The notes under the pieces were generated by a model, which did no database searches, was not told the origin of the DNA, and worked only from the letters and a program-made list of their open reading frames with translations. Positions 157-37,905 of a DNA stretch of 37,905 nucleotides are shown one piece after another. The position numbers and the translations under genes are program-made. The DNA comes from a virus. Location: the IMG/VR virus record IMGVR_UViG_3300005511_000880, positions 1 through 37,905 of that record. One strand, 5' to 3'. Positions within the stretch are counted from its first letter, which is position 1. Every line of letters begins with the position of its first letter.

Positions 157-232
<76 letters not shown>

Positions 233-20106: not shown

Positions 20107-20995
20107 CGACGCCGCCGTAATGCAGCTCGACCGCGGTGCAGAACGGGGCCTGGGTACGGTCGATCGCGATGTCGCCCGCCGGCGAGGTCAGTGTCACCCG
20201 CTGAATGCCATCGCAGTGCAAGGCCGCGTAGAGCCCGCTCATGGTGATGTCACGGCCAATCCGGTGCGATTCGGCGACGTAGGCATCCAGCCGCTTACGG
20301 GACTCGGCAAGCACCACGGCGCTGTCGGGGCCGGCGAAGGTGGTGATCGTACCCTTCACCTCGTAGGGAACGATGACCGCGGATTGCACGGTGACCTCGT
20401 CCGTCATTGGCCGCACGTTATCGGCATTCACGGCGGTGGCGACGGCAGCGCATAGGTCGGCGGTCGCGGTGCCATCGCCCTTCCGCGACAGTACGGTGAC
20501 GACCACATGGGCCGGTTCCGGGCTGGTCGCGCTGGCATCGAGCACCTGCGACGAGGCACTCAGAGCATGGTAGATGTAGGCCCCTTCCGGGCCGGCGACT
20601 GAGAACCCTTCGGGCGCGAGCGTGATGCGACGGCGATAGTCCGTGTCGCTTTCCATCGTCGGTGGAATACCGCGATCGGGGTCGCCGGGGGCGAGTTGTA
20701 GTCGCCCCACGCCGAGCAGTGCGCCGAGGTGATCGAGATCCGATTTCTGCGCGTAGGCCAACATCACGGCCTTGGCGGCGTCGTTGATGCGCTGACGGAT
20801 CAGAAGCTCACGATAAGCCGCAACCTGAAGCGCCTTGTAGACAGGGTCGGATTCGATCAGCGCGGTGAAGGTGTCGTCGAGTTCGCGCAGCTTGGCAAGC
20901 ATCGCGCTGAAGATGGCCTCGAAATCGAGCGGCTCGACGACATCGGGCGCGGGCAGACGCGACAGGTCCACCGCGGTGTAACCAAACGTGCTCAT
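20099..20995 (-). CDS. J: Baseplate protein gpJ
   Basis: 298-residue baseplate wedge protein (P2 gpJ, about 302; Mu gp47/T4 gp6-like). It opens MSTFGYTAVDLSRLPAPDVVEPLDFE and contains RQRINDAAKAVMLAYAQKSDLDHLGALLGV. The later pieces YRRRITLAPEGFSVAGPEGAYIYHALSA and VVVTVLSRKGDGTA also match the family. It is the first gene of the leftward J-I-H-G transcript, and a late-promoter-like dyad lies about 80 bp upstream. Confidence 0.95.
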   Translation of the reverse strand: MSTFGYTAVDLSRLPAPDVVEPLDFEAIFSAMLAKLRELDDTFTALIESDPVYKALQVAAYRELLIRQRINDAAKAVMLAYAQKSDLDHLGALLGVGRLQLAPGDPDRGIPPTMESDTDYRRRITLAPEGFSVAGPEGAYIYHALSASSQVLDASATSPEPAHVVVTVLSRKGDGTATADLCAAVATAVNADNVRPMTDEVTVQSAVIVPYEVKGTITTFAGPDSAVVLAESRKRLDAYVAESHRIGRDITMSGLYAALHCDGIQRVTLTSPAGDIAIDRTQAPFCTAVELHYGGVDE

Positions 20996-23910: not shown

Positions 23911-24389
23911 GGCGTCGCTGTGTCCCATTCGGCCACCAGCTCCCCGCGCAAGAACAGCCGCCAATGGCCGACCGGCAGCGATGCCTCGGGTAAGGGTTCG
24001 GCGACCGGCTCGATGTCGAGCCGTCCGTCGTCGGATCGCTTCACGACCACCGACTCCGATAGCTTGATCTTGATGCTCAGGTCGCACTTCGCGTGGTCCA
24101 GCAGGTCTGCCTCAAAGGTGATGCCATCCCGGCGCTGATCGACATTGTCGAGTAGCTCCGGCTGGTTCGCCGACAGCCAGGCCAGTAGGGCCACCCACAC
24201 GATCAACGGATCCGCAGCAAAGTCGGTCAGGATGATATTGAGCGTGTAGGCGCACTCAAAGGATAGACCCGGGACGTAGGTGGCGTGCAGCGAACCCTGG
24301 TCAATGAAGACCAGGAAGCGCTCCGGATCGCGAGCGAGGTCGGGCAAGGCTGCCACCAGCGCGGCGCGCAGGCTATCGGGCTTCTTCAC
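23907..24389 (-). CDS. R: Tail completion protein gpR
   Basis: 160-residue tail completion protein (P2 gpR, about 155). It opens MKKPDSLRAALVAALPDLARDPERFLVFIDQG and carries the FECAYTLNIILTDFAADPLIVWVALLAWL core typical of the family. It overlaps the i-spanin stop at its start and gpS at its end, so it is part of the continuous leftward lysis-to-tail transcript. Confidence 0.95.
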   Translation of the reverse strand: MKKPDSLRAALVAALPDLARDPERFLVFIDQGSLHATYVPGLSFECAYTLNIILTDFAADPLIVWVALLAWLSANQPELLDNVDQRRDGITFEADLLDHAKCDLSIKIKLSESVVVKRSDDGRLDIEPVAEPLPEASLPVGHWRLFLRGELVAEWDTATP

Positions 24390-24874
24390 GGCGGCGTCCC
24401 ACTGTTGGTACGCACCCAGTCCTGCAGCGCTGTCAGCTGTTCGGCGATGGCATGGCAGGTGGTGTAGTTGTCGACGACGGTGCCGGCGACAGCAGAGAGC
24501 GCAAGGCCGCTGGCTTGCGCATCAACAGGTCCGGTGGGATCGGGCATTGCGGACTGCGCGGCGGCGTCATGAAGGCGCACGAAGCCGACAGGCACGATGC
24601 AAGCAGCATCGGCAGACGCAGGAACATAGACAGGTACCTTCTGAAGGATGGTTTGGCCCGTTGCGTGCACGATCTGCACGCGATCGACGTACTGGGTCAC
24701 GATGCGCTCGCTGCCGGTCTTGGCGGCTAGCTCGCCGGCCAGGTCGCGCGCATGGGTTTCCGCAGCGACGGCGCGGCTATCCGCGTCCTCGATTCGGCGG
24801 GACGTCACCGTGTGGTAGAGCCATAGCGCACCGAGCAGCGCGATGGCGAGCAGCCCTTGGCGCAGGTGGTTCAT
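24386..24874 (-). CDS. lysB: LysB-like inner-membrane spanin (Rz-like)
   Basis: 162-residue i-spanin that fuses inner and outer membranes in the last step of lysis. An N-terminal signal anchor (LLAIALLGALWLYHTV, residues 8-23) is followed by a long charged helix and the segment ERIVTQYVDRVQIVHATGQTILQKVPVYVP, characteristic of P2-group LysB/Rz-like proteins. The ATG at 24874 overlaps the endolysin stop as ATGA, so the longer frame to 25147 is rejected. A second spanin gene is embedded in another frame. Confidence 0.88.
   Translation of the reverse strand: MNHLRQGLLAIALLGALWLYHTVTSRRIEDADSRAVAAETHARDLAGELAAKTGSERIVTQYVDRVQIVHATGQTILQKVPVYVPASADAACIVPVGFVRLHDAAAQSAMPDPTGPVDAQASGLALSAVAGTVVDNYTTCHAIAEQLTALQDWVRTNSGTPP
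24433..24627 (-). CDS. lysC: LysC-like outer-membrane spanin lipoprotein, embedded in lysB
   Basis: 64-residue frame lying wholly inside lysB in a different frame. It starts MFLRLPMLLASC, a short lipoprotein signal with lipobox LASC and Cys12 as the lipidated residue. The mature part is proline-rich (TPPRSPQCPIPPDLL and TPPAMPSPNS), as in Rz1/LysC proteins. Embedded Rz1-type genes are the usual arrangement for two-component spanins. Confidence 0.82.
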   Translation of the reverse strand: MFLRLPMLLASCLSASCAFMTPPRSPQCPIPPDLLMRKPAALRSLLSPAPSSTTTPPAMPSPNS

Positions 24875-25674
24875 GCCGCCACCGCCGTGTGGCGGGCATA
24901 GGCCCGTGCAAGCTTGGCGTCGTATAGGTTGTCGGCGTAGGTCGGTCCGTTGTACCGACGAGCAAAGGCCACCCATTTGCGGCCACGCAGTGCTTTGTGC
25001 AGCTCCGCATCCGCCTGTACGAAACGCACGAACGCACGCAGGTGCTCCGCTTCGCCCATGGCAAACGCCGCCGCCATCGATGAGGCGCCGGCATAGCCCA
25101 GCGCGTGGGCGTGGTAGCCCATGATCTGAAAGCGTCCCCAGCTGCAAGCTTCCATGGCCGGTTCGTGGGCAAGCGCCGTGGCCTGAGCAAGTCGCATGTA
25201 CTCGGCGGCCCCGCCAAGGTATCCCCCGCGCTGTTGGCTGAGGATGGCCGTGGGCGCATTCAGCGCGGTGGGGTCCATGCGGGCGGCGACCAGGCGCTGC
25301 CAGAACACATGCCTCTCGAACAGGATCACGACACGGCCATCCGCCAGAAAACCACCCTGCGGACTTTCCACCTCGATCACCGCCTGCAGCGCCGCGACCT
25401 CGACTCCGAGCTGGTCAGCAGCGGAAGCGATGTCAGCCTGGGACAACGCGCGAGGATCGGAGCGGCCGGCGAGCGCCCGCTGCGTGCGAGGTCCGGCGAT
25501 GCCGTCGACGACGAGGCCGGCACTGCGCTGGAACTGGCGCACTGCGGCTTCCGTGGTCGGATCGTAGAAGCCGGTGCGTGCGACCGGGACGCCGGTGGCG
25601 GTGAGGCGCGTCTGCAGGACGGTGACGTCCGCTCCGTGATCGCCGGCGCGGAGCGTGCGTAGTTCAACGGTCAT
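24871..25674 (-). CDS. Endolysin: peptidoglycan-binding domain plus N-acetylmuramidase
   Basis: 267-residue phage lysozyme. An N-terminal peptidoglycan-binding domain (about 8-70; ADVTVLQTRLTATG, EAAVRQFQRSAGLVVDGIAGPRTQRAL) precedes a DUF3380-type N-acetylmuramidase domain (about 80-262). In that domain E102 or E100 of AVIEVES is the probable catalytic acid, and CSWGRFQIMGYHAHALGY is a family hallmark. No signal peptide is visible, so export depends on the holin. It differs from the P2 gpK type of lysozyme. It overlaps the second holin at its start and lysB at its stop. Confidence 0.93.
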   Translation of the reverse strand: MTVELRTLRAGDHGADVTVLQTRLTATGVPVARTGFYDPTTEAAVRQFQRSAGLVVDGIAGPRTQRALAGRSDPRALSQADIASAADQLGVEVAALQAVIEVESPQGGFLADGRVVILFERHVFWQRLVAARMDPTALNAPTAILSQQRGGYLGGAAEYMRLAQATALAHEPAMEACSWGRFQIMGYHAHALGYAGASSMAAAFAMGEAEHLRAFVRFVQADAELHKALRGRKWVAFARRYNGPTYADNLYDAKLARAYARHTAVAA

Positions 25675-25948
25675 AACGAGTCCGAAGGAGGTGGGCGATG
25701 TTGCCGCGGGCGCGCAGGCTCAGCAGGCACAGCACGAGGGCGATGCCCGCATCACCCAGGTGAATCGCCGGGGCCGGATACAGCCCGAGTCCGAGCTCGA
25801 GTGCGGTGGTGCCGGTGGACACGATGAGGATCCATGCGGCGGCGCTGATCGCGGGCCGGTAGCGCGACCCGTCGCGTCGATAGAGCAGCAAGCGCAGGCA
25901 GGTGGTGGTGTTCGCCACCATCATCACGAGAGCCAGTAGCGCCGCCAT
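25664..25948 (-). CDS. Putative 3-TM holin
   Basis: 94-residue membrane protein with hydrophobic segments at about 1-16 (MAALLALVMMVANTTT), 34-52 (ISAAAWILIVSTGTTALEL) and 62-76 (LGDAGIALVLCLLSL). The RYRPAISAAAWILIV segment resembles the putative 3TM holin family (Phage_holin_3_7-like). The start overlaps the upstream holin-like gene as ATGA. It lies directly before the endolysin, so it is likely a holin or pinholin. Which of the two small membrane proteins is holin and which is antiholin cannot be decided. Confidence 0.75.
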   Translation of the reverse strand: MAALLALVMMVANTTTCLRLLLYRRDGSRYRPAISAAAWILIVSTGTTALELGLGLYPAPAIHLGDAGIALVLCLLSLRARGNIAHLLRTRYDR

Positions 25949-26304
25949 CAGGAGTCCCTTCGCCGAAAGACTCGGGTCAGATCGATCGATCCGACCCGAT
26001 CCAGTAGTTGCACCGTAACGGCGACGATCAGCGCTGCGGCAAGAAAGGCAGCGACGCCGGTCTGCTGCAGATCGCAGCGCTTGGCCACCTCGGGCGCGGC
26101 CAAATAGCCGGCGATCCAACTGATCGCTAGGTACATCAGGCGCTTGGGAATCCCCAGATCGCGCGCATGCAGGGCCATCAGCGCGGCGCCGGCAAAGGCG
26201 CCGACGATGGCATTGCCATCCATGCCGGGCAGTAGGCTCGCCACACTGACCCCCGCTGCGGCGAAACCGGCGAGCGTGGTACTGGTGGTAGTCGGTTCGG
26301 CCAT
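25948..26304 (-). CDS. Putative holin/phage membrane protein
   Basis: 118-residue protein with several hydrophobic helices, near residues 11-26, 32-46, 57-70 and 84-101, and a basic C terminus (FRRRDS). It starts MAEPTTTSTTLAGFAAAG and occupies the position of P2 gene Y (holin), between X and the second holin. The ATG at 26304 is chosen over the longer frame because that frame runs through X. Its stop overlaps the next start as ATGA. Confidence 0.75.
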   Translation of the reverse strand: MAEPTTTSTTLAGFAAAGVSVASLLPGMDGNAIVGAFAGAALMALHARDLGIPKRLMYLAISWIAGYLAAPEVAKRCDLQQTGVAAFLAAALIVAVTVQLLDRVGSIDLTRVFRRRDS

Positions 26305-26321
26305 CAGGATTCCTTGGGGTG

Positions 26322-26531
26322 TCAGGTCCAGAGCTGCACGACGCCGGTTTCCACCGGCACGCGCATCACGGCGTCGTGCAACGTCACGGCGTAGCCCGTC
26401 GGCAAAAAGGGGCCGACGCCCGCCAGTCCGGGATTCGCAACCAGGGCCGCTTCGGTCACCCCGGCGGTGCGCCCCAGGGCGCGCAGGCACAGGGCATCCA
26501 GGGTTTCGCCTTGCAGGGCCCGGACAATCAC
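26322..26531 (-). CDS. X: Tail protein gpX (LysM-like)
   Basis: 69-residue LysM-like tail protein X. The GTG at 26531 overlaps the L stop as GTGA and gives VIVRALQGETLDALCLRALG, followed by NPGLAGVGPFLPTGYAVTLHD, the typical GpX sequence. Length equals P2 gpX (67) within two residues. It is probably part of the tail tip and peptidoglycan contact. The longer open frame upstream is only antiparallel overlap with L. Confidence 0.92.
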   Translation of the reverse strand: MIVRALQGETLDALCLRALGRTAGVTEAALVANPGLAGVGPFLPTGYAVTLHDAVMRVPVETGVVQLWT

Positions 26532-26992
26532 AGCAACTCGACCGTGGCACGCGGACGGCCGAGCAGGTCGCGGATCGCATACCGAGCGAGGCGGCGGTAG
26601 TCGTCCGCCGTGGACTCCACGATGTCGGCGCGCCGCTGCCCGGCGCCGGTGGTGTCGATATCCCGGTAACGCTCGGCCAGTTCCGCCTGGGCGGTCGCGT
26701 ACACCGCGCGGCGGTACAACAGCACCAGGCGGGATTCGCCAGCGATCACCTTGCTCGGCACCTCGTTGAGGGAGGCGCGACCGAAGGCTTGTTGCTGGTG
26801 CTGCCAGGCATCGAGTTCGTCCTCGACCGAGGCGATTGCGAGGCTCAAGCATTCGACCAGGCGCTCGGTGGTGACGGTACCGTCGATGCGCATCACCGCG
26901 CGCGCATCGGTCGGATTGATGGCCGGAAACCAATCGCCGGAGGTGATGGGGGCGGGCGCGGGCGCAGGCGCCGCGGCAACAAAAGCGTTCAT
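26528..26992 (-). CDS. L: Head completion/stabilisation protein gpL
   Basis: 154-residue capsid completion protein (P2 gpL, about 169). Family features include SGDWFPAINPTDARAVMRIDGTVTTERLVECLSLAI and AQAELAERYRDIDTTGAGQRRADIVESTADDYRRLARYAIRDLLGRPRATVELL. It is followed by X with overlap and preceded by M after a 100-bp gap in which I see no gene. Confidence 0.94.
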   Translation of the reverse strand: MNAFVAAAPAPAPAPITSGDWFPAINPTDARAVMRIDGTVTTERLVECLSLAIASVEDELDAWQHQQQAFGRASLNEVPSKVIAGESRLVLLYRRAVYATAQAELAERYRDIDTTGAGQRRADIVESTADDYRRLARYAIRDLLGRPRATVELL

Positions 26993-27092
26993 GGGCTCTC
27001 GTCAATCAAAGGTGCGGCGGTGGTCGATGGGTCAACGGGCGGGAGAGAGTCGGCCGGTGCCCACCGAGCCGCCGCGGCGCTCGGGGGCGAGC

Positions 27093-27749
27093 TCAGGTCG
27101 CGGGAGCCAGCTGCTTGGTCAGCTTGGCGATGTCGGCTTTTAGGCCGAGCCGCGGATTCAGTTGCAGCGCACGCTGCAGATGGTCGAGGGCTTGGGATGG
27201 GCTGACCGTGCGCAGCGCTAGGCCGATCGCTCGATGCAACTTGGCGCGCACTTCGTCGGGCATGTCACGCCCTTCCGTGAGCGCACCGACGCGCAACAGA
27301 TCGTCGACGGTGACCTGGCCGCCGTCCGGGAGCCCCGCACGTTCGGCCACTTCTTCCACCACCAGCGTGGGCAGATCGCGCTGATAGTGCTCGGGCAGGC
27401 GCAGATCGTGCTTCAGGAGGTGCTCGGCCATATCCAGCGCGTGGCCGATGTCGCCGGTGTCGATGCTCCACACCATCACGGTGGCGAAGACGTCGTCCTG
27501 TACCGGCTGGTCGGCCTCCAGTACACCGCGGATCCACGCACTGTACTCAGGCAGGCGCTGTCGCTTGACGGTGATCTTCTGCTCGATCGATTTGATGTCC
27601 TTCAGGACGCGCTTGTCTTCGGTCAGCTTGGCGAGCATGAGCTCGTAGGCCGAACCGCCGGCCAGGGACGGTTCGCCGTTCTCGGCGGCACGGGCCGAGG
27701 CCCGTGCCGCAAGGATCCGCTGGCGATGCAATTGAGCGGGGGACGGCAT
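27093..27749 (-). CDS. M: Terminase small subunit gpM
   Basis: 218-residue small terminase (P2 gpM, about 247), which recognises cos DNA. It opens MPSPAQLHRQRILAARAS and contains AYELMLAKLTEDKRVLKDIKSIEQKITVKRQRLPEYSAWIRGVLE, the usual core. The segment DDVFATVMVWSIDTGDIGHALDMAEHLLKHDLRLPE is also conserved in the family. It follows the capsid gene N by three bases. The large subunit P is on the opposite strand beyond O, as in P2. Confidence 0.94.
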   Translation of the reverse strand: MPSPAQLHRQRILAARASARAAENGEPSLAGGSAYELMLAKLTEDKRVLKDIKSIEQKITVKRQRLPEYSAWIRGVLEADQPVQDDVFATVMVWSIDTGDIGHALDMAEHLLKHDLRLPEHYQRDLPTLVVEEVAERAGLPDGGQVTVDDLLRVGALTEGRDMPDEVRAKLHRAIGLALRTVSPSQALDHLQRALQLNPRLGLKADIAKLTKQLAPAT

Positions 27750-27752
27750 GGC

Positions 27753-28775
27753 TTAGGCCGCGCCGCCCGCGCCGGCCAGCGCGATGTTCTCGATCAGGCA
27801 GCCGTGGCCGTAGTCCTCCACGACATAAGCATCGTTGGAGCTTTCGTAGTTCGTGACGCGCTTCCACTCCGGCTCTTCCTTGATGTAACGGCGACGCCCA
27901 CCCTCCTGCCAGTAGATCGACAAGTTGTCATAGCTGGTGACCAGGATCGCGTTGCTCGGGAAGAACGGCACACCGGCTGCGGCCTGGTTGCCGACCCGGC
28001 GCTGCGCCAAGATCAGGTCGGTGGCGAGCACTTCGGTCGCCGGCTGGTCGCGGTTGACCAGCGGGAAGTACTTGTCGTGCAGCAGATCGCGACCGATCAG
28101 CACGACCAGATCCGAGGCATCGCGGTACCACGGATCGATTAGGCTGGCGACAGCGTCGTAGACCAGCGCGTCGAGGTTGGCGTAGTCGCCGTCCTTGCCG
28201 ATCTGGATTTTGCCGGCGACTTTGCCGCTCGCCATCACACGATCCGGCGCCTGCGTGCGGTATTGCTGCAGCCAGCCGACATTGACATCCTGCAGCATCG
28301 GGTTCGTCGCGCGGTCGGTTTGCTTGGCGACATTGGTGCCGTTGAAGCCGATGGTCATGCGGTCCAGTGCCTGACGCTTAAGGATGGCGTCGCGTACGCG
28401 GGTCTGGAAATCGGGGAACTTCGCCCACGAATCGAGCTTGGCGTAGCCGAGGAAGGTGTCGTATTCGGTGTCGGCACAGCTATAGCGCTGGTCATCCAGG
28501 CCGCTGAGGTCGCGCGGCTGACGGGCGCCCTTGGTGACATCGGTGCGACCGGCGATCGGACCGGAGATCGACAGACCCAGCTTCTCGCCGACCAGCTCGG
28601 TCACCGGAGCGATATTGATCTTCGACAGGAACGCGCTGGATTCCTGCATCTTGGTTTCCAGGCGCTGCTGGACGCTGGGCTCCACGCTGAAATGCACGGC
28701 GGTGCTGTCCACCCCGTTGAGGGCGGCGATTTGCTGGGTGTACTGGTTGAAGACGAGGCGGGTGTCGTTACGCAT
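27753..28775 (-). CDS. N: Major capsid protein gpN
   Basis: 340-residue major capsid precursor (P2 gpN, about 357). It opens MRNDTRLVFNQYTQQIAALNGVDS. Conserved pieces include SGPIAGRTDV, WAKFPDFQTRVRDAILKRQALDRMTIGFNGT, LLHDKYFPLVN and the C-terminal YVVEDYGHGCLIENIA. In P2 the N terminus is removed by the gpO protease, and a similar site would lie within the first 40 residues here. It has a GGAG ribosome site and lies 55 bp after O. Confidence 0.96.
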   Translation of the reverse strand: MRNDTRLVFNQYTQQIAALNGVDSTAVHFSVEPSVQQRLETKMQESSAFLSKINIAPVTELVGEKLGLSISGPIAGRTDVTKGARQPRDLSGLDDQRYSCADTEYDTFLGYAKLDSWAKFPDFQTRVRDAILKRQALDRMTIGFNGTNVAKQTDRATNPMLQDVNVGWLQQYRTQAPDRVMASGKVAGKIQIGKDGDYANLDALVYDAVASLIDPWYRDASDLVVLIGRDLLHDKYFPLVNRDQPATEVLATDLILAQRRVGNQAAAGVPFFPSNAILVTSYDNLSIYWQEGGRRRYIKEEPEWKRVTNYESSNDAYVVEDYGHGCLIENIALAGAGGAA

Positions 28776-28824
28776 AGGTCAAGCTCCGGAGACGGGCGCG
28801 AAGGGGAGGCGAGCGAAAAGGTCG

Positions 28825-28843
28825 GACCGACTAGCAGTCGGTC
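28825..28843 (-). other. Hairpin over the O stop codon
   Basis: GACCGAC-TAGCA-GTCGGTC forms a 7-bp stem with a 5-base loop that includes part of the gpO stop codon, 50 bp before the capsid start. There is no T tract. It may help separate translation or mRNA stability of scaffold and capsid, which are needed in different amounts. That role is speculative. Confidence 0.35.
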
Positions 28844-29676
28844 TGTGCGGCACCGTTGCCGCCGGTCGCCGCGGGACGCCGGGGCGTAGCCTCGGTCTGA
28901 CCCAGCTGGGTGCGCAGCGTCGAGAACTCGGTCTGCGCGGTCTTGGCGTTGCGCTCCACGGTGGCCAAGCGTTCCTTCAGGGCGGAGAGCTCAGTCACCA
29001 GCACCGTGTCGCGCTCGGCGAAGGACTCGACCACCGCGGTCAGGCCATCCATCGCCGCGGCGACATCCGCCAGCTGCGCATCACTGGATCTGGCTCTAGT
29101 GGTGAGCTTGGCCAGGCGCTCCTTGATCTGAGCGAACAGCGCCAACGCCGGCGCCGGCTCGTCCTCGAATTCGATCTCGACGGCCTCGGTGGCGGCGGTG
29201 AACAGGTTGTCCGGCGATTGCTTGCGGGCAGTGAACGGGCTGATCGCTGGGTTGCCGGCCGCGAACTGCATCATGTCGGTGCCCAGACTCGCCGGGCTGT
29301 CAGTGATGCCGAGACCCACCAGGTAGGCGCGGCCCGTGTCGGCAAACTTCGGATTGACCTCAATGCTGGGGTAGATCTTCTGCTTGGCTTTCGCCATCGC
29401 GACGAGTTCGGGCGTCGGCTCGATCTGCGCGAACAAGGCCAGCTTGCCCTTGAGATCGCCCGTCGTGATCTCTTCGGCCTTTACCGCGGTGACATCGCCG
29501 TAGGCCTTGAACGGACCCTCGGGGAGCATGCCACGCAGGTGCTCCAGGAAGATACGAGCACCGTAGGTGTTGGGGCTGTAGTTTGCCGCGATGTCCAGAA
29601 TCCAGCTGCGCTCCATCGTGCGGCCATCGGTGGTCGCGCCTTCGACGGCGACGCGAAAAAACTTGCTCTTGGCCAT
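28831..29676 (-). CDS. O: Capsid scaffold and maturation protease gpO
   Basis: 281-residue scaffold/serine protease (P2 gpO, 284). It opens MAKSKFFRVAVEGATTDGR. D17, H46 (LEHLRG) and S104 (IYPSIEV) have the spacing of the catalytic triad known in P2 gpO (D19, H48, S107). The protease half ends near residue 140, and the C-terminal part (200-260) is coiled-coil scaffold. The ATG at 29676 is chosen over the longer frame to 29778, which would cross the late-promoter region. First gene of the O-N-M-L-X-lysis-R-S operon. Confidence 0.95.
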   Translation of the reverse strand: MAKSKFFRVAVEGATTDGRTMERSWILDIAANYSPNTYGARIFLEHLRGMLPEGPFKAYGDVTAVKAEEITTGDLKGKLALFAQIEPTPELVAMAKAKQKIYPSIEVNPKFADTGRAYLVGLGITDSPASLGTDMMQFAAGNPAISPFTARKQSPDNLFTAATEAVEIEFEDEPAPALALFAQIKERLAKLTTRARSSDAQLADVAAAMDGLTAVVESFAERDTVLVTELSALKERLATVERNAKTAQTEFSTLRTQLGQTEATPRRPAATGGNGAAQTDC

Positions 29677-29756
29677 GGGGAAACCTCGGTGACGTGGACG
29701 CCGTAAAAGGCGTGTCCATCGTCGGCACGTGCGCACACAGCGGCAACTCGAGGCGG

Positions 29757-29778
29757 GTGTAGGAGTGGACTCATCCAC
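29757..29778 (-). promoter_or_regulatory. Probable Ogr-dependent late promoter element upstream of O
   Basis: GTGTA-N12-TCCAC with AGTGGAC in the spacer, in the divergent region between O and P. It shares GGGTGTAGGAGTG with the element before J. The centre is about 92 bp from the O start, which leaves a leader of about 36 bases if the -55 rule holds. The promoter for the P-Q operon on the other strand was not identified. The same dyad lies only about 56 bp from the P start, so it may not serve both. Confidence 0.65.
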
Positions 29779-29823
29779 CCGCGCGAACCCTGCAAACGCG
29801 AAGCGCTCGGCGACGATGCCGCC

Positions 29824-31584
29824 ATGCTTATTCCGCCTCCCGATGTCGATCAGCGCCGCATGGCGCGTGCGCTGTATTGGCAGGGATGGCGCGTCACGGA
29901 CATCGCGCAGGAGCTCGTGATTCCACGCACCACAGTAGAGGCGTGGAAGACCCGCGATCAGTGGGATGCGGCGCCGGTGATCGAACGCGTCGAGACCTGC
30001 ATCGAAGCACGCCTAGTGCAGCTGGTCTGCAAAGACAAAAAGACCGGCGGTGACTTCAAAGAGATCGATCTGCTCGGCCGCCAGATCGAGCGCATGGCGC
30101 GCGTACGCCGCTACCAGGAGCCCGGCGGCAACGAAGCCGATCTGAACCCGAACGTCGAAGCACGCAACGCCGGTCCGAAGCGCAAACCTAAGCGTAACGA
30201 ATTCACCGAAGACCAGGTTGATCACCTACGCAAAACGTTCCTGGGCTCCCTGTTCGAGTACCAGCACCTCTGGCATCGCGCGGCCGACGAACGCACGCGC
30301 ATGATCTTGAAGAGTCGCCAGATCGGCGCGACGTGGTACTTCGCGCGCGAGGCGCTCTATGACGCCATCACCACCGGGCGCAACCAGATCTTCCTGAGTG
30401 CCTCCAAGGCGCAGGCGCATATCTTCAAGCAGTACATCCGGCAGTTCGCGATCGAAACCTGCGAGGTGGATCTCAAGGGCGACCCCATCGTCCTGTGGAA
30501 TGGCGCGCACCTGTACTTCTTGGGCCAGAACGCCCGCACCGCGCAGGGCTATCACGGCAACTTCTACTACGACGAGTTCTTCTGGACCTGCAATTTCGAG
30601 GAGATCAACAAGGTCGCCTCGGGCATGGCCATGCACAAGCAGTGGCGCAAGACGTACTTCTCCACGCCCAGCGCCAAGAGCCACCCGGCTTATCCGTACT
30701 GGACCGGCGAGCGCTACAACCGCCGGCGTCCCAAAGATCAGCGCATTGAGATCGTCACCGCCCACGAGGCGCTGGTGGCGGGGCTGCGCTGCGGCGACAA
30801 GGTGTGGCGCCAGATCGTGACGATCGAGGATGCCGAGCGCGGCGGCTGCAGCCTATTCGACATAGACGAACTACGGACCGAGTACACGCCGGACGAGTTT
30901 GCCAATCTGCTGATGTGCCAGTTCATTGATGATGGCGACAGCCTGTTCACACTGCGAATGATGCAGGACTGCATGGTGGACAGCTGGGTCGATTGGTCCG
31001 ACCTGCAGCCTCTGACCGCGCGGCCCTTCGGACATCACCCGGTGTGGGTCGGCTACGACCCGTCGCTCGGCAACGGTGGCGACAGCGCTGGCCTGGTCGT
31101 GGTGGCTCCACCGCGCATGCCAGGCGGGAAGTTCCGGGTACTCGAACGCCATCGGCTGAAGGGACTGGATTTTGAGGCCCAGGCGGAGTTCATTCGCACC
31201 ATCACCAAGCGCTACCACGTGACCTATATCGGCATCGACTGCACCGGCATCGGCGCGGCCGTGCACCAGTTGGTGGTGCAGTTCTTCCCGCTGGCCCGGA
31301 AGTTCGTCTACTCGGTCGAGCTCAAGGCCCAAATGGTCATGAAGGCGCAGCACGTAATCGGTAAGGGCCGCCTCCAGTTTGACGCCGGCTGGACCGACTT
31401 CGCACAGTCGTTCATGGCGATCCGCAAGACCCTGACCGACAGCGGCCGGCACGTGAAATACACGGCCGGACGTTCCGAGGAAATCGGCCACGCCGATCTG
31501 GCGTGGGCCTGCATGCACACCCTGATTAATGAACCACTGGAAGGCGCCAACGGGCGCAATTCCGGTTTTGTGGAGATGTTCTGA
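29824..31584 (+). CDS. P: Terminase large subunit gpP
   Basis: 586-residue ATPase and nuclease that packages DNA into the procapsid (P2 gpP, 590). An N-terminal helix-turn-helix (YWQGWRVTDIAQELVIPRTTVEAWK, about 18-42) precedes the ATPase, with Walker A-like LKSRQIGATW (162-171) and Walker B FYYDEFFW (247-254). The C-terminal RNase H-like nuclease begins VGYDPSLGNGGDSAG, with D412 as a likely metal ligand, and continues with YIGIDCTGIG. It is divergent from O, as in P2, and two bases separate it from Q. Confidence 0.97.
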   Translation: MLIPPPDVDQRRMARALYWQGWRVTDIAQELVIPRTTVEAWKTRDQWDAAPVIERVETCIEARLVQLVCKDKKTGGDFKEIDLLGRQIERMARVRRYQEPGGNEADLNPNVEARNAGPKRKPKRNEFTEDQVDHLRKTFLGSLFEYQHLWHRAADERTRMILKSRQIGATWYFAREALYDAITTGRNQIFLSASKAQAHIFKQYIRQFAIETCEVDLKGDPIVLWNGAHLYFLGQNARTAQGYHGNFYYDEFFWTCNFEEINKVASGMAMHKQWRKTYFSTPSAKSHPAYPYWTGERYNRRRPKDQRIEIVTAHEALVAGLRCGDKVWRQIVTIEDAERGGCSLFDIDELRTEYTPDEFANLLMCQFIDDGDSLFTLRMMQDCMVDSWVDWSDLQPLTARPFGHHPVWVGYDPSLGNGGDSAGLVVVAPPRMPGGKFRVLERHRLKGLDFEAQAEFIRTITKRYHVTYIGIDCTGIGAAVHQLVVQFFPLARKFVYSVELKAQMVMKAQHVIGKGRLQFDAGWTDFAQSFMAIRKTLTDSGRHVKYTAGRSEEIGHADLAWACMHTLINEPLEGANGRNSGFVEMF

Positions 31585-31586
31585 AC

Positions 31587-32579
31587 ATGACCGAGATCAA
31601 CACCGCCCCACCGCGCATGGAAGCCTTCAGCTTTGGCGATCCCATGCCGGTGCTCGATGGCCGTGATGTGCTGGAGTACATCGAAGCCTGGCGCAACGGG
31701 CGGTGGTATGAAACGCCGGTTTCCATGAGCGGACTTGCGCGATCGTTTCGATCGACGCCGCATCACTCCAGCGCGATCTATGTGAAGCGCAACATTCTGG
31801 TGTCGTGCTTCAAGCCGCACAAGCTGCTCAGCCGCGAGGCGTTTTCGCGCTGGGCGCTGGACTTCATGGTGTTCGGCAATGGCTACCTGGAGCGGCGTAA
31901 GAGCCGCCTGCGCACCACCATGGAGCTGCAGCCTGCGCTGGCGAAGTACATGCGGCGTGGCGCCGATGACATGGACGTGTATTTCCAGGTAACCGGATGG
32001 AAGGCGGAACATGAGTTCGCCAAGGGGGCCATCTTCCACTTGATGGAGCCGGATATTCACCAGGAGGTCTATGGCGTGCCCGAGTACCTGTCAGCGCTAC
32101 AGAGCGCATGGCTGAATGAAGCAGGCACGCTGTTCCGGCGCAAGTACTATCTCAACGGGTCACACGCCGGGTATATCCTCTATGTCACCGATGCGCTGGC
32201 CGACGAAGAGCAAGTGAATGGTATCCGCGACGCGCTGAAGAACAGCAAGGGACCGGGCAACTTCCGCAACCTCTTCATCTATGCGCCGAACGGAAAGAAG
32301 GATGGCCTGCAGCTGATGCCGATCAGCGAGGTGGCGGCCAAGGATGAATTCTTCAGCATCAAGAACGTTACGCGTGACGATGTCCTGGCTGCACATCGCG
32401 TGCCACCGCAATTACTTGGCTTAGTGCCTACCGGCACCACCGGATTTGGCTCAGTGGTGCCCGCGGCGCAGGTATTCGCCATCAACGAACTACTGCCGCT
32501 GATGGCGCGTTTCCGCCAGATCAATGACTGGCTTGGCGACGAGGTCGTAGCGTTCAACGACTATGCAGTGCATCAGTAG
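31587..32579 (+). CDS. Q: Portal protein gpQ
   Basis: 330-residue portal subunit that forms the dodecameric DNA entry ring (P2 gpQ, about 344). It contains the conserved pieces AFSFGDPMPVLDGRDVLEYIEAWRNGRWYETPVS, SPHHSSAIYVKRNIL-like sequence, HLMEPDIHQEVYGVPEYLSALQSAWLNE and DVLAAHRVPPQLLGLVPT-GFG, ending in FNDYAV. The length is normal. It is the last recognisable phage gene on the right, and it converges with the candidate immunity gene, whose stop lies 36 bp away. Confidence 0.96.
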   Translation: MTEINTAPPRMEAFSFGDPMPVLDGRDVLEYIEAWRNGRWYETPVSMSGLARSFRSTPHHSSAIYVKRNILVSCFKPHKLLSREAFSRWALDFMVFGNGYLERRKSRLRTTMELQPALAKYMRRGADDMDVYFQVTGWKAEHEFAKGAIFHLMEPDIHQEVYGVPEYLSALQSAWLNEAGTLFRRKYYLNGSHAGYILYVTDALADEEQVNGIRDALKNSKGPGNFRNLFIYAPNGKKDGLQLMPISEVAAKDEFFSIKNVTRDDVLAAHRVPPQLLGLVPTGTTGFGSVVPAAQVFAINELLPLMARFRQINDWLGDEVVAFNDYAVHQ

Positions 32580-32615
32580 CGGATGAGCTATCTGTTGAGA
32601 AATCCTGTAGCGCTG

Positions 32616-33320
32616 CTATTTCGTCATCCACATCGGCAATGCGAAGTCGGGATCAATTGTCTTATGTGCGGCTTTCAGATAACTGCTTCGTATGCGAGAA
32701 ACGTCTTGAATAGGCATTGTTTTCACAATGCGAGACCATAACGATAGAAACCTATCGTCGATAACATCCAACAACCCTGACAGGTAATCAGCAAGCATCA
32801 TGGGTAGATCTGGCGTCAGTGACCGTGTGTACGCATCCCACGAATCAGTTGAGCTCAAGCAAATTTGTTCAAAGTCGATGTCGCTACGACCATCGTTGGT
32901 CCACAGATTTTGGATTGCCCTCTTTAGCTCAACATCAATTTCAAGTAGGTCATCAGCCCCGGGCGCGCGCGCAAGTTGATCTGTCATCAGAGCAAGCATC
33001 GAACTGGAGGTCGAGTCATACGAACTCGTTAACTCATCGCTAGCTACAGTTTTGATGCATTCAATCAAAGACTTGTCAGCACCAGAGGCTATACAACCAT
33101 CAATGAGATCGGATTTGGTCCTCGCCAAACGATCGGGTGAGAAGGATACATTCCAGTACACATCCGCTCCCGACATCATCTTTTTTACTACATTCCGACA
33201 GGCAAGCTGAATTGACGCACGCTGTCCATCTTCGGCTATTAGTCCAATCATCGACCAATAATTAAAGAACCAATCCGTGCTTAGCAGCATGACCAACTTG
33301 TCGGCATTCGCTTCGTTCAC
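32616..33320 (-). CDS. Candidate immunity protein for the RHS C-terminal toxin
   Basis: 234-residue protein starting at a GTG one base after the RHS stop codon, so the pair is translationally coupled. It has no signal peptide and no recognised domain. It is acidic and helical (LVMLLSTDWFFNYWSMIGLIAEDGQRASIQLACRNVVKKMM at the N terminus). Composition is much more AT-rich than the phage genes or the body of the RHS gene. A small unknown gene directly downstream of an RHS variable tip is, by rule of context in polymorphic toxin loci, usually the cognate immunity gene. That assignment rests on context only. Confidence 0.65.
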   Translation of the reverse strand: MNEANADKLVMLLSTDWFFNYWSMIGLIAEDGQRASIQLACRNVVKKMMSGADVYWNVSFSPDRLARTKSDLIDGCIASGADKSLIECIKTVASDELTSSYDSTSSSMLALMTDQLARAPGADDLLEIDVELKRAIQNLWTNDGRSDIDFEQICLSSTDSWDAYTRSLTPDLPMMLADYLSGLLDVIDDRFLSLWSRIVKTMPIQDVSRIRSSYLKAAHKTIDPDFALPMWMTK

Positions 33321-33321
33321 C

Positions 33322-36300
33322 TTAATGTCCTCTTGGCATGCTGGGTAAAGGCCTAGTGGCTAAGCCCCACGCGCCTGGCGGTATAGGGCAACCGTTCTCA
33401 ATTGCTTTTTTTATCAGGTTACGTAGCCTATTCTGCCATCCTTGCGCTTGCTGAATATGACCCATCCATGTCCCAACCTCGGGGGGATAGGCAGGATTCC
33501 TAACGCTATGTGCTGTGTCATATAGCCGCCAAGAGTCCGATAGTAGGTCGTTGATGCGGCCCTGCAGTACCGTCATAGCCTCGTAAATCGCTCTCTGGAT
33601 AGCTTTGCATTTGTCACTGTCGCCGGGGCAGTTGAGCTCCGCAGAAGGGTGAGGCTCATCTGTGCATGAGTCGGCGGTGGGGGACGGATATATCAACGCA
33701 CCTAATGCACCAAGTGCTCGGCAAAGACCTCCGCCTATCGGTAGTGGCCTGGGCGCTAAAGGCTCGTTCGCGGCGGGCCCAAAGTTCGGCACACCGCCAG
33801 TTCCAGGAGCCGGCAGAGTTGTTGGTGCTGGTGCCGCTGGCGCTGGAACTGTTACTGCATCAAGCCCAAGCGGATCTACGCTAGTAAGCGGGTTGCCCCT
33901 CGCGTAACCAAATGTGCTGACACCTGCAGCCAGACCAACGGGATCACTTTGAATGTAGCGCCCACATTCTGGGCAATAATTTCGGTACCCGTTCTGGACC
34001 AGCCCCGACTCCGCATCTACGTACTGCCCGGGGAAACGCAAATTGAAAACGTAGCCGTTCGAAGAGATGGGCTGCTGCTCGCTGAACGGATTACCGGAGT
34101 TACTCAATTGCCAAATCGGAGCGCCTGTGGCGTCGGTAATCACGCGTGGTGTATTCAGGCCATCGGCGTGTACATAGCCCACGGTATTGCCGGCGCCGGA
34201 GTTGTCGATCACCGCCACCGGCAACGCTTCTAGCCAGACATAGCTACGACTGGTCGCTCCGTATTCACCGAGCAGCTGACTGTCTTCGTCGTAGGCAAAT
34301 CGCTGAGTGCTTGTCGCCGATTTCGAAACACGCTGCCCCATTGCATTGTAGGCGTAGCTACCGACGGTCTGGCCGTTGTGCCGCACTACTGTCATGCGAT
34401 TGCGGTCGTCGTAGCCGTAGCCAAACGTGTCGCTGCCAGTCGCATTACCCGTGGTGTTGCCATTGGCGTCATACGCTCGAGCGCTGTTGCCTATGCTTGT
34501 CAGCCAATGGGTGCCTGTTTGGTAACCGTAGGTGCCCGTGGCCAGCGCATTGCTCGCCTTGCTGAGGCGGTCGCCGGTTTTGTTATAGGTATAAGCTTCG
34601 ATCGCGCTCCCCTGGGCATCCTTGAGGCCGGTCAACCTATACAACGGATCGTAGCTGTAGGTCTCAATGGCCGGATTGGCACCCGATGCATTGCCCAAGG
34701 CCGTGATGTTGCCCATCGCATCGCGTGCGAAGTGCAGGTTCAGCGCCGGGCTGACGATGTCCGTCACCGCGTAGTTCGCATCGTAGGTGCGGGTGAGCGC
34801 TTGGCCATTGCCCAACGTGTAGCTGGCGATGGGACCGAACGGCAGGTAGCTGACATTGGTGACCACGTTGCCGGCGCTGCTGCCCGGTGATTGCGCAGTG
34901 ACGCCATTGATGCGGCCAGCGCTGTCGCGGCTGTATTGGATGATGGTTCCATCTGGCGTGCGGGTGCTCGCCAGGCGGTTGGCCAGTGTGTAGCCATAGC
35001 TGGCCATATCGACGGCCGTGCCCTGGGTCTGGCGCTTCTGCACCACGTTGCCGCGAGCGTCGTAGCAATAGACCGTGGTGACGGCCGTTTCCACCACGCT
35101 GGTCAGGCGGCCCACCGGGTAGGAACCCACGCAACCGGTGACGCTGTCAGCCTCGTCGTAGCGGTAGCTGATGTTAGCGTTGCTGTTCGGATAAGTGGTG
35201 GCGGTAATCCGATCCAGCGCATCGAAAATGCTGTGGCTAACCACGCCTCGCGCATCCGTAGCCTGGACGCGGTTGCCAGCCGCGTCGTAGGTATAGCTAG
35301 AAGTACCGGTGTCAGGGCTATGCACGGCCTTGGTGTTACCCAGGCCGTCATAGTCGTAGGTGGTGTTAAGGCCATCCGGATCGCTGACACCCTGGAGGTT
35401 GTCCCTTGGATCGTAGGCGAACACGCTCTGGGTGTTCTGCGTCGCCGGGTCCACGCCGTTGTAGTTGTCGATGGTGCTGACCAGGCGATTGAGCGCGTCA
35501 TAGCCTTGTTTGCGCTGGACGCCCAACGCATCGGCGCTGCGCACCAGGTTGCCGATGCCGTCGTAGCTGTCGCTGAAGCTGGCGTCGAAGATCGTGCGGT
35601 TGAAGCCATCCTTGATTCCGACCAGCTGACCCAGAGTATTGTAGCTGCGGGCCACGGAGCGGCGCAGCGTGCCGGTGGCGTCGAAAGTCTCTTCCTTGGT
35701 CTTATTGTCGGCCGCATCCAAGGTGTAATGGATACGGTTGCCAAGGGCATCGGTGATGTCTGTGAGGCGATGGGCGGCATCGTAGGTATAGCTGACCTTG
35801 ATGTTGTCCGGATCAGTAACCCCAATCACATTTCCCGCGCCATCATAATCAAACGTGGTGACTGCATTGCCGATCGCGCGGGTCTTCAGCCATCCACGAG
35901 GCGTATAGGTAAAGGTCGTCGCTACGCCGTTGGCATCGACCATTCCGGTGACGCGACCTGCCCCGTCATAGGACGTATAGGTCGTCACGTAGCCCAGTGC
36001 ATCAACCGTTTGATAGACATCGCCCGCTTTTGCCGAGGCACTGCTCGTGGTGTAGTACCGGATGCTGCTGACCTGACTTAGATCCGTCCGCGGCCCAGTT
36101 TCGCTTAAGCGCAACCCCACGAATGGGCAACCCGTGCCGATCGTGTCGCAGTAACTGTATTGGCGTTGCCGCACACCGTCGGGCGCTGTAGCGGTGCTGC
36201 CACACACGTAGCTGAGTGCCGCGGACTTGGATGCGTCGATCTCGCAGGCTGCCGTGACTTGGCCCCTGCCGTTATACGACCACGTGAACTTCTCTATCAG

Positions 36301-37905
36301 GTTGTTGTTGTAGTCATAGATGCGACGCTCCGTCGGAAGATGAAAAACGTTATTCCAATCGGTTTGGATGGTGCGGGGATTCTGACTTCCATAGTTGTCG
36401 ACGCTGCCGGTGAGCAATCCCTCGCTGTTGTGCTGATAGCTCGCGATGTTGCCGTTGAAATCGGTGGCTTTGCTGACCAACCCCGTGATGTCGTATTCGC
36501 GAGCACTTACAGTGCCGCAGGTCTTGCACGTTCCATTCAGGCCCACCGCTTTCGGCACGCCCTGGATGACCGTGAAGGTGTGATTTCGCGTCGCCCCGAG
36601 CGGATCTGTAACAGTGGCCGATCCATCGCTGTTGTAGGTGATAGCGAAGGCATCGACGCCTCCAGCCAACTCGTTTGCTATCGCTTTGCCATTCGCGTCA
36701 TAGCTGTAGCTGACGTACCGGACCTGATTCTCATCGATGATGCCGGTCAGCAAGCCCGGCGCCAGGGATCCGCCTACGCGCGACGGCTCGTTATAGAGAT
36801 AGGTTCGCTGCTTTCCATCCGGATAGCTTGTCGTCGACAGGTTTCCAGCCGCGTCGTAGGCGTAACCAATAGTTTGGCCATCTGGACTGGTCACCGTTGT
36901 CAAGCGACCAGCTGCGTCGTAAGTCAGATTGATGGAACGCAGGAACGGATCCGTCACGGAGATCAGGTAGCCCGCGCCTGGAGCGATATTGGCCGGCGTA
37001 GAGGCATCGCTGTAACCGAGGGAGATTAGGAAGCCTTCGGGATCCTGGATGGCGACTAGCCGGCCAGTAAGGTCGAATTGCTCCGTGCTGCGAGTGTCGA
37101 CTCGCTTGAGCAACCAACCGGTGCGGTTCCCCGAGCCGTCTTTCTGCTCGACCAATTCGTCGAAGACATCCGGCTCACCCGCCCAGACACCGGAGATCAA
37201 TTGGTAGATGACGACGCGGCCATCTTCTCGTGTGACCTTAACCGTATCTGGATTAGGAGCCGTACCAGCGATGAAGTTGACGGTGCGCTGATAGGTATGT
37301 CGCCAACGCAATCCTAACTGTCCCGCGCCACCGCTAGGCGCACTGTTGTAGTAGCGAGTAAAAACCAACCATCGTCCGGCCGCGATTTCCTCCTCACGTC
37401 GAAAGACATTGCCGGTACCTGCGTTGATCGGATCGCCTACGCAGTTCGGGCACGGCGGCTCGCCGTTGCTCTTGCCCGGATCCGGCGTGACGGGCGTCGG
37501 ACAAAGCCATTGATTGCCGACGCCAGTGTCATAGCTGCCGAGGCCATTCACATTGTTGTGCAGGCCGTATACCCACGACCCGATAAGTGCTGTCTGGGAG
37601 GAATTGTTCCATCCGACGCAGCACGTGTGGCATGAGGCAGTGACGACCAGATCGGGATACTGCGACATGGCGCTTGGCACCATTACATTCACGCAGTGAT
37701 CTTCGGCTTGGCTGTACGTCGGCCAGCCAGAACCATTAGGGGGACACCAATGACTATCGGCGAGCGCCGCCGTGGTGTGCATGGCTCCTGCGAGGAACAA
37801 TCCTAAGCACAGGCCTAGGCGCATGAAGCTAGTAGAGGACGTCGCTCCGGGAAGGCGCGGTAGGCACCGGGCGATCCATCCCTGAATAGCCTTCAAGCGT
37901 TTCAT
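33322..37905 (-). CDS. Secreted RHS-repeat protein with variable C-terminal toxin-like tip
   Basis: 1527-residue RHS/YD-repeat protein whose ATG lies at the window edge, so an upstream start cannot be excluded. The N terminus is a long Sec signal peptide (hydrophobic LGLCLGLFLAGA, predicted cut after TAALA-49). A CPNCVGDPINAGTGN segment (152-166) begins the DUF6531-like region. Many YDxxGR and YxYDxxGN repeats follow, building a large beta shell. The RHS-associated core ends GRYIQSDPVGLAAGVSTFGYARGNPLTSVDPLGL. The last 179 residues (from about 1349) form a proline-rich linker and a cysteine-containing helical domain. No PAAR domain is visible, so delivery is probably not through a type VI spike. 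Toxicity is inferred from architecture and the neighbouring immunity-like gene. Confidence 0.88.
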   Translation of the reverse strand: MKRLKAIQGWIARCLPRLPGATSSTSFMRLGLCLGLFLAGAMHTTAALADSHWCPPNGSGWPTYSQAEDHCVNVMVPSAMSQYPDLVVTASCHTCCVGWNNSSQTALIGSWVYGLHNNVNGLGSYDTGVGNQWLCPTPVTPDPGKSNGEPPCPNCVGDPINAGTGNVFRREEEIAAGRWLVFTRYYNSAPSGGAGQLGLRWRHTYQRTVNFIAGTAPNPDTVKVTREDGRVVIYQLISGVWAGEPDVFDELVEQKDGSGNRTGWLLKRVDTRSTEQFDLTGRLVAIQDPEGFLISLGYSDASTPANIAPGAGYLISVTDPFLRSINLTYDAAGRLTTVTSPDGQTIGYAYDAAGNLSTTSYPDGKQRTYLYNEPSRVGGSLAPGLLTGIIDENQVRYVSYSYDANGKAIANELAGGVDAFAITYNSDGSATVTDPLGATRNHTFTVIQGVPKAVGLNGTCKTCGTVSAREYDITGLVSKATDFNGNIASYQHNSEGLLTGSVDNYGSQNPRTIQTDWNNVFHLPTERRIYDYNNNLIEKFTWSYNGRGQVTAACEIDASKSAALSYVCGSTATAPDGVRQRQYSYCDTIGTGCPFVGLRLSETGPRTDLSQVSSIRYYTTSSASAKAGDVYQTVDALGYVTTYTSYDGAGRVTGMVDANGVATTFTYTPRGWLKTRAIGNAVTTFDYDGAGNVIGVTDPDNIKVSYTYDAAHRLTDITDALGNRIHYTLDAADNKTKEETFDATGTLRRSVARSYNTLGQLVGIKDGFNRTIFDASFSDSYDGIGNLVRSADALGVQRKQGYDALNRLVSTIDNYNGVDPATQNTQSVFAYDPRDNLQGVSDPDGLNTTYDYDGLGNTKAVHSPDTGTSSYTYDAAGNRVQATDARGVVSHSIFDALDRITATTYPNSNANISYRYDEADSVTGCVGSYPVGRLTSVVETAVTTVYCYDARGNVVQKRQTQGTAVDMASYGYTLANRLASTRTPDGTIIQYSRDSAGRINGVTAQSPGSSAGNVVTNVSYLPFGPIASYTLGNGQALTRTYDANYAVTDIVSPALNLHFARDAMGNITALGNASGANPAIETYSYDPLYRLTGLKDAQGSAIEAYTYNKTGDRLSKASNALATGTYGYQTGTHWLTSIGNSARAYDANGNTTGNATGSDTFGYGYDDRNRMTVVRHNGQTVGSYAYNAMGQRVSKSATSTQRFAYDEDSQLLGEYGATSRSYVWLEALPVAVIDNSGAGNTVGYVHADGLNTPRVITDATGAPIWQLSNSGNPFSEQQPISSNGYVFNLRFPGQYVDAESGLVQNGYRNYCPECGRYIQSDPVGLAAGVSTFGYARGNPLTSVDPLGLDAVTVPAPAAPAPTTLPAPGTGGVPNFGPAANEPLAPRPLPIGGGLCRALGALGALIYPSPTADSCTDEPHPSAELNCPGDSDKCKAIQRAIYEAMTVLQGRINDLLSDSWRLYDTAHSVRNPAYPPEVGTWMGHIQQAQGWQNRLRNLIKKAIENGCPIPPGAWGLATRPLPSMPRGH

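Follow-up and report, generated by a model that had tools for sequence, protein, structure and literature searches.

The question raised by this locus is whether a large RHS gene at the end of a prophage record encodes a toxin with its own immunity protein, and whether the pair belongs to the phage or to its host. The window (the whole stretch of DNA analysed, an IMG/VR record of 37.9 kb, 37,905 nt) holds a P2-like provirus with tRNA-Met and integrase at the left, followed by primase, tail genes, capsid, terminase and portal. Its closest phage, over the tail-gene segment compared, is Stenotrophomonas phage Smp131. The system itself is of a known kind, an RHS polymorphic toxin with immunity. 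We consider it very probable, from sequence comparison, that the pair is such a toxin with its cognate immunity protein, carried as accessory cargo (a 'moron') by the P2-like prophage of a Lysobacterales host. An earlier sequence-only reading had proposed the toxin and a coupled immunity gene; the prophage cargo context was absent from it. The features of the cassette are as follows.

33322 to 37905, minus strand: RHS polymorphic-toxin protein of 1527 aa (RHS_repeat 3.6e-67, DUF6531 1e-12, TIGR03696 1.2e-19)
37759 to 37905, minus strand: probable Sec signal peptide, residues 1-49, ending ALA/DS, with its hydrophobic maximum at FMRLGLCLGLFLAGA
37204 to 37437, minus strand: DUF6531 region, residues 157-234 (Pfam match)
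33862 to 34053, minus strand: RHS core-associated domain, residues 1285-1348 (NCBIfam TIGR03696), containing DPVGL...DPLGL
33325 to 33861, minus strand: variable tip of 179 residues (1349-1527), with proline-rich linker, short hydrophobic segment and helical domain of the putative toxin family
33325 to 33636, minus strand: conserved tip domain (alignments A1 and A3)
33328 to 33333, minus strand: Shine-Dalgarno-like AGAGGA within the RHS 3' end, 7 nt ahead of the immunity GTG
32616 to 33320, minus strand: immunity candidate P0002, 234 aa from a GTG codon; no signal peptide is apparent, and a low-confidence model predicts an all-helical protein

An RHS/YD repeat shell is present (PF05593 3.6e-67 in 13 stretches, with TIGR01643 also matching). 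A search at E up to 1 returned no PAAR match, in agreement with the sequence-only reading, and no MuF domain was found, RHS_repeat and DUF6531 being the only matches in that search. Judged by eye and hydropathy, the N-terminus is compatible with a Sec signal, having a hydrophobic stretch that runs up to ALADS, and a shorter start at Met28 would yield a canonical signal peptide. Signal-like segments also open related RHS genes, and a Sec signal on the protein is likely. Because the record ends exactly at the RHS ATG, the true start or promoter may lie outside it. The region between signal peptide and DUF6531 (37450-37750) is cysteine-rich. At the other end of the shell an autocleavage site is predicted after DPLGL, just before the tip, by analogy with Rhs proteins that have been studied.

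The TIGR03696 match ends at residue 1348 and the tip therefore starts at 1349, which gives the 179 residues previously claimed; the proline-rich linker, five cysteines and C-terminal ending described for it were all found in the translation. The helical domain was recovered as a hairpin of two helices with short flanking helices in a single-sequence AlphaFold2 model of moderate quality (mean pLDDT 71.7, pTM 0.65). An HMM and structure comparison of residues 1349-1527, which had been proposed as a check, returned nothing significant in the libraries or with Foldseek (best E 0.88 in PDB and 0.39 in BFVD). Neither the tip nor the 234-aa protein matched Pfam, NCBIfam, PHROGs, PADLOC or PDB sequences, and the label 'unrecognised type' thus holds across these five libraries. 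Weak PDB hits (best E 0.01 for one alignment member, 0.07 for the profile) were ignored. The described Ntox/Tox families in Pfam and NCBIfam, including the all-alpha Ntox34, left the tip unmatched. HEPN, PLA2 and HNH/xHH toxins were set aside on reading of the sequence, as their motifs are missing.

Direct look-ups of tip and immunity protein in phages, plasmids, viral contigs and GTDB contigs gave nothing, and relatives surfaced only by profile or six-frame search of Lysobacterales genomes. With a profile built from eight sequences, tip relatives were found in 11 of 399 Lysobacterales genomes, mostly as the C-termini of RHS proteins. A class-level draw of 369 genomes yielded only two with relatives, neither of them new to the Lysobacterales set, which suggests that the family is concentrated in that order. 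Tip relatives end seven RHS proteins (740-1788 aa) and one 237-aa RHS fragment. The alignment of eight (A1) has invariant Cys, Cys, His, Leu and Cys and a conserved end resembling AWxWAT-P-P; in a twelve-row alignment (A3), some rows of which are remnants, the His and last Cys are still invariant. In tip numbering the conserved residues are Cys78, Cys85, His135 and Cys158. By the helix order of the model, one end of the hairpin should hold the cysteines, with His135 close to the opposite end, and a single C2HC zinc site therefore looks unlikely, though this evidence is weak. The conserved His near the hairpin turn is, on the model, the best candidate for a functional residue. Taken together with the library searches, the tip appears to be a new toxin-domain family, undescribed in the libraries searched.

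The tip might instead work at membranes, with a Gly/Ala-rich hydrophobic segment inserting as in pore-forming Rhs toxins. Such a segment (GGGLCRALGALGALIY, tip residues 43-58) is present in the window, with Gly/Ala-rich counterparts at the same place in the relatives. However, it is short and could serve translocation instead, a role proposed for a glycine-zipper T6SS effector (PMC10240207). P0002 also has no transmembrane-like segment (best 19-residue mean hydropathy 1.1), and we regard action by membrane insertion as unlikely.

The immunity candidate lies where it had been placed, one base after the RHS gene (RHS stop TAA at 33324-33322, GTG at 33320-33318). Since AGAGGA lies inside the RHS gene, this arrangement suggests that P0002 translation is coupled to that of the toxin. 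The gene had also been called strikingly AT-rich, which is true relative to its surroundings: its GC content is 46.8%, against 61.1% for the window, 56.5% for the tip, 58.9% for the shell and 64.4% for the late phage genes. The structure model of P0002 (pLDDT 50.6) was too poor for a fold search. Both proteins have homology to independent loci, which excludes chance ORFs.

Tip relatives are almost always followed, at spacings of -47 to +18 bp, by one of several small genes, namely DUF6869 (six loci), a 98-aa family (three), the P0002 type (three) or a 179-aa protein (one). One tip family with several immunity families is the pattern that polymorphic toxins show. DUF6869-type genes stand directly behind tips at L042, L043, L045, L047, L049 (assigned by sequence similarity) and L038. 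Because of this position behind other members of the window's tip family, DUF6869 (PF21746) is probably an immunity family; no paper on it was found in the open-access literature searched. P0002 likewise stands behind such a tip but does not match PF21746 and is not a member. It appears to represent an immunity family of its own, undescribed in the libraries searched.

Relatives of P0002 occur in two other genomes, G097 and G293, with a tip relative directly upstream in both. The G097 relative (244 aa, pairwise E 2e-7) begins with an ATG directly behind the stop codon of a tip remnant that shares 44% identity with the window tip, and the same array holds a second P0002-type copy that has no tip. 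The G293 relative (profile search E 4.5e-6) overlaps the end of its tip remnant by ATGA; this remnant, from reading the DNA, scored 24 bits with the A1 profile and 21 bits with A3, while the best of 5000 shuffles against A3 reached 7 bits. A further match in G092 (E 6.8e-4), which falls within an 860-aa frame, was taken to be a chance hit. As only remnant tips are left in G097 and G293, the pairing is intact only in the window. Decay of this kind could also have reached the window, its tip being inactive and the downstream gene an orphan immunity kept as protection against others: the G097 and G293 tips are truncated or interrupted before open P0002-type genes, and G097 has immunity arrays without toxins. 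The window frame, however, is intact over 1527 codons, it has every conserved tip residue and its translation looks coupled, which makes a decayed window tip very unlikely. The G097 array (L038, G097:C1:3342001-3362000) consists of immunity-like genes and tip remnants beside a sucC-like gene, including two P0002-type genes and one DUF6869 gene, and resembles a graveyard where displaced RHS tip cassettes have collected.

For the reading of the proposed pair as phage cargo, two features of the provirus are relevant.

157 to 232, plus strand: tRNA-Met adjoining the integrase gene (449-1705), where the prophage probably has its left attachment site
31587 to 32579, plus strand: P2-like portal gene (Q), identified by phrog_68 (E 2.1e-153) and by sister proviruses

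The portal gene and the RHS cassette are convergent and 36 bp apart, and the portal gene marks the cargo site. No P2-type cos or attR was found within the record; attR is unseen because the record stops at the RHS ATG, with the RHS start, promoter and right attachment site beyond its end.

Comparison was extended to three sister proviruses, taken from IMG/VR by their related portal proteins. L058 is identical to the window over 26385-32615. The phage DNA of L059 shares 89.8% identity with it over 24168-32570; the match breaks off where the portal gene ends, and an RHS gene then follows in the same place and orientation as in the window. Within the RHS core, 1.9 kb of L059 match window 33935-35814 at 81.6% identity, up to 74 bp before the tip, whereas no comparable similarity is seen in the N-terminus, the tip or the downstream gene (166 aa); given this difference, the N-terminal domain may be exchanged too. 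L060, whose phage DNA is 73% identical, again carries an RHS pair at this site. Its tip is GIY-YIG-like (E 0.019, a score that misses the family cut-off), and behind it come Imm26 (E 3e-10) and then an RraB-like gene. Imm26 at the same position serves as a positive control and therefore supports reading P0002 as immunity, and the other tips and partners in L059 and L060 indicate an exchange of tip and immunity gene at one fixed position in the phage. The open-access literature searched gave no account of exchanged RHS tips at a cargo site in P2-like phages. The RraB-like protein occurs behind RHS cassettes in both a phage and a chromosomal setting (L060:9038-9400, minus strand; L039:4947-5303, plus strand, the latter by resemblance) and is possibly a further immunity family.

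These records also bear on whether the RHS gene is a host gene beside a defective prophage end, that is, a toxin pair but not phage cargo. The window and L059 records both stop at the start codon of the RHS gene, which could result from provirus trimming where host DNA begins, and no phage structural genes were seen near the RHS loci that hold the Lysobacterales tip relatives. Against a host gene, neither the 36 bp gap between portal and immunity gene nor the rest of the record contains another copy of the tRNA-Met attachment core, RHS genes occupy the same place and orientation in two further related proviruses, and the stretch past the portal gene carries accessory genes in Smp131, a related phage. 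Ownership by the host is thus improbable, and we retain phage cargo as the preferred reading. Recurrent RHS tips, paired small genes and the swaps in sister proviruses support the toxin with coupled immunity that had been proposed from the window's sequence, and the comparison shows, at sequence level, a modular shell and tip, joint replacement of tip and partner, and conserved pairing.

The nearest characterised relative in mode of action is, on our best reading, Bcn-A of Xanthomonas perforans, an RHS-family bacteriocin found in the supernatant and lost in an xpsD (type II secretion) mutant (PMC7259588). The likeness is one of description: both come from the same bacterial order, and Bcn-A is an antibacterial RHS protein of about 1400 aa with a downstream immunity gene and no reported T6SS part. 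In contrast, accessory ORFs 2 and 4 are required for Bcn-A, whose immunity protein has 145 aa and for which no prophage context is reported (PMC7259588). The Rhs/WapA systems share the repeat shell, swappable C-terminal toxin and adjacent immunity gene, and a Sec/T2SS route is listed for RHS toxins (Zhang et al. 2012, PMC3482391); the window tip and immunity protein, however, match no Pfam model, toxin and immunity families included. PAAR-linked type VI Rhs effectors (Tse5, TseI, Tse15) likewise have an RHS cocoon and a cleaved C-terminal toxin, whereas the window protein has an N-terminal signal-like segment in place of PAAR or a T6SS adaptor. MuF toxins (PMC5576092) are also polymorphic toxins of temperate phages near packaging genes, but they are fused to a phage head protein in Firmicutes phages, whereas that of the window is a separate RHS protein, probably secreted.

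From these comparisons we propose that the RHS protein would be exported by Sec. Release from the cell would follow either through type II secretion, the route reported for Bcn-A, or when a fraction of the lysogens lyse. The YD-repeat shell would enclose the tip and, as in other Rhs proteins, cut it free after DPLGL. The freed helical tip of about 100 residues would be taken up by a target bacterium and act in the competitor's cytoplasm, since P0002 and the partners of the tip relatives look soluble and lack signal peptides. In lysogens P0002, translationally coupled to the toxin, would neutralise the tip by binding. As to the activity, a toxin acting on nucleic acid with the conserved His is a tentative guess, membrane damage is doubtful, and some other activity has not quite an even chance.

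Polymorphic toxins would gain a toxin-domain family that seems not to have been described, together with an immunity family, and DUF6869, a family of unknown function, a suggested role in immunity. P2-like phages would carry RHS toxins as exchangeable cargo, and lysogeny may give the host a weapon by which non-lysogens are killed or excluded. The balance is even for the wider proposal that Lysobacterales P2-like phages keep a swappable portal-side site exchanging whole secreted RHS toxins, the window tip being a family of undescribed fold and activity neutralised by several unrelated immunity families.

Elsewhere in the window, a 727-aa ORF with a weak N-terminal acetyltransferase match lies between primase and tail genes (6749-8932) and is a possible second cargo site. 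ARAGORN called a tRNA-Gly at 20446-20536 (plus strand) within the tail-gene region, opposite a minus-strand ORF, which is probably a false positive. In L060, L039, L040 and L047 two genes share the RHS shell between them, with the break at the same point in all four loci (...LDNYNGTN stop), the second gene carrying the tip and opening with its own signal-like segment (in L060, 12308-15370 and 10000-12294, both on the minus strand), apparently a two-gene RHS shell reminiscent of TcB/TcC.
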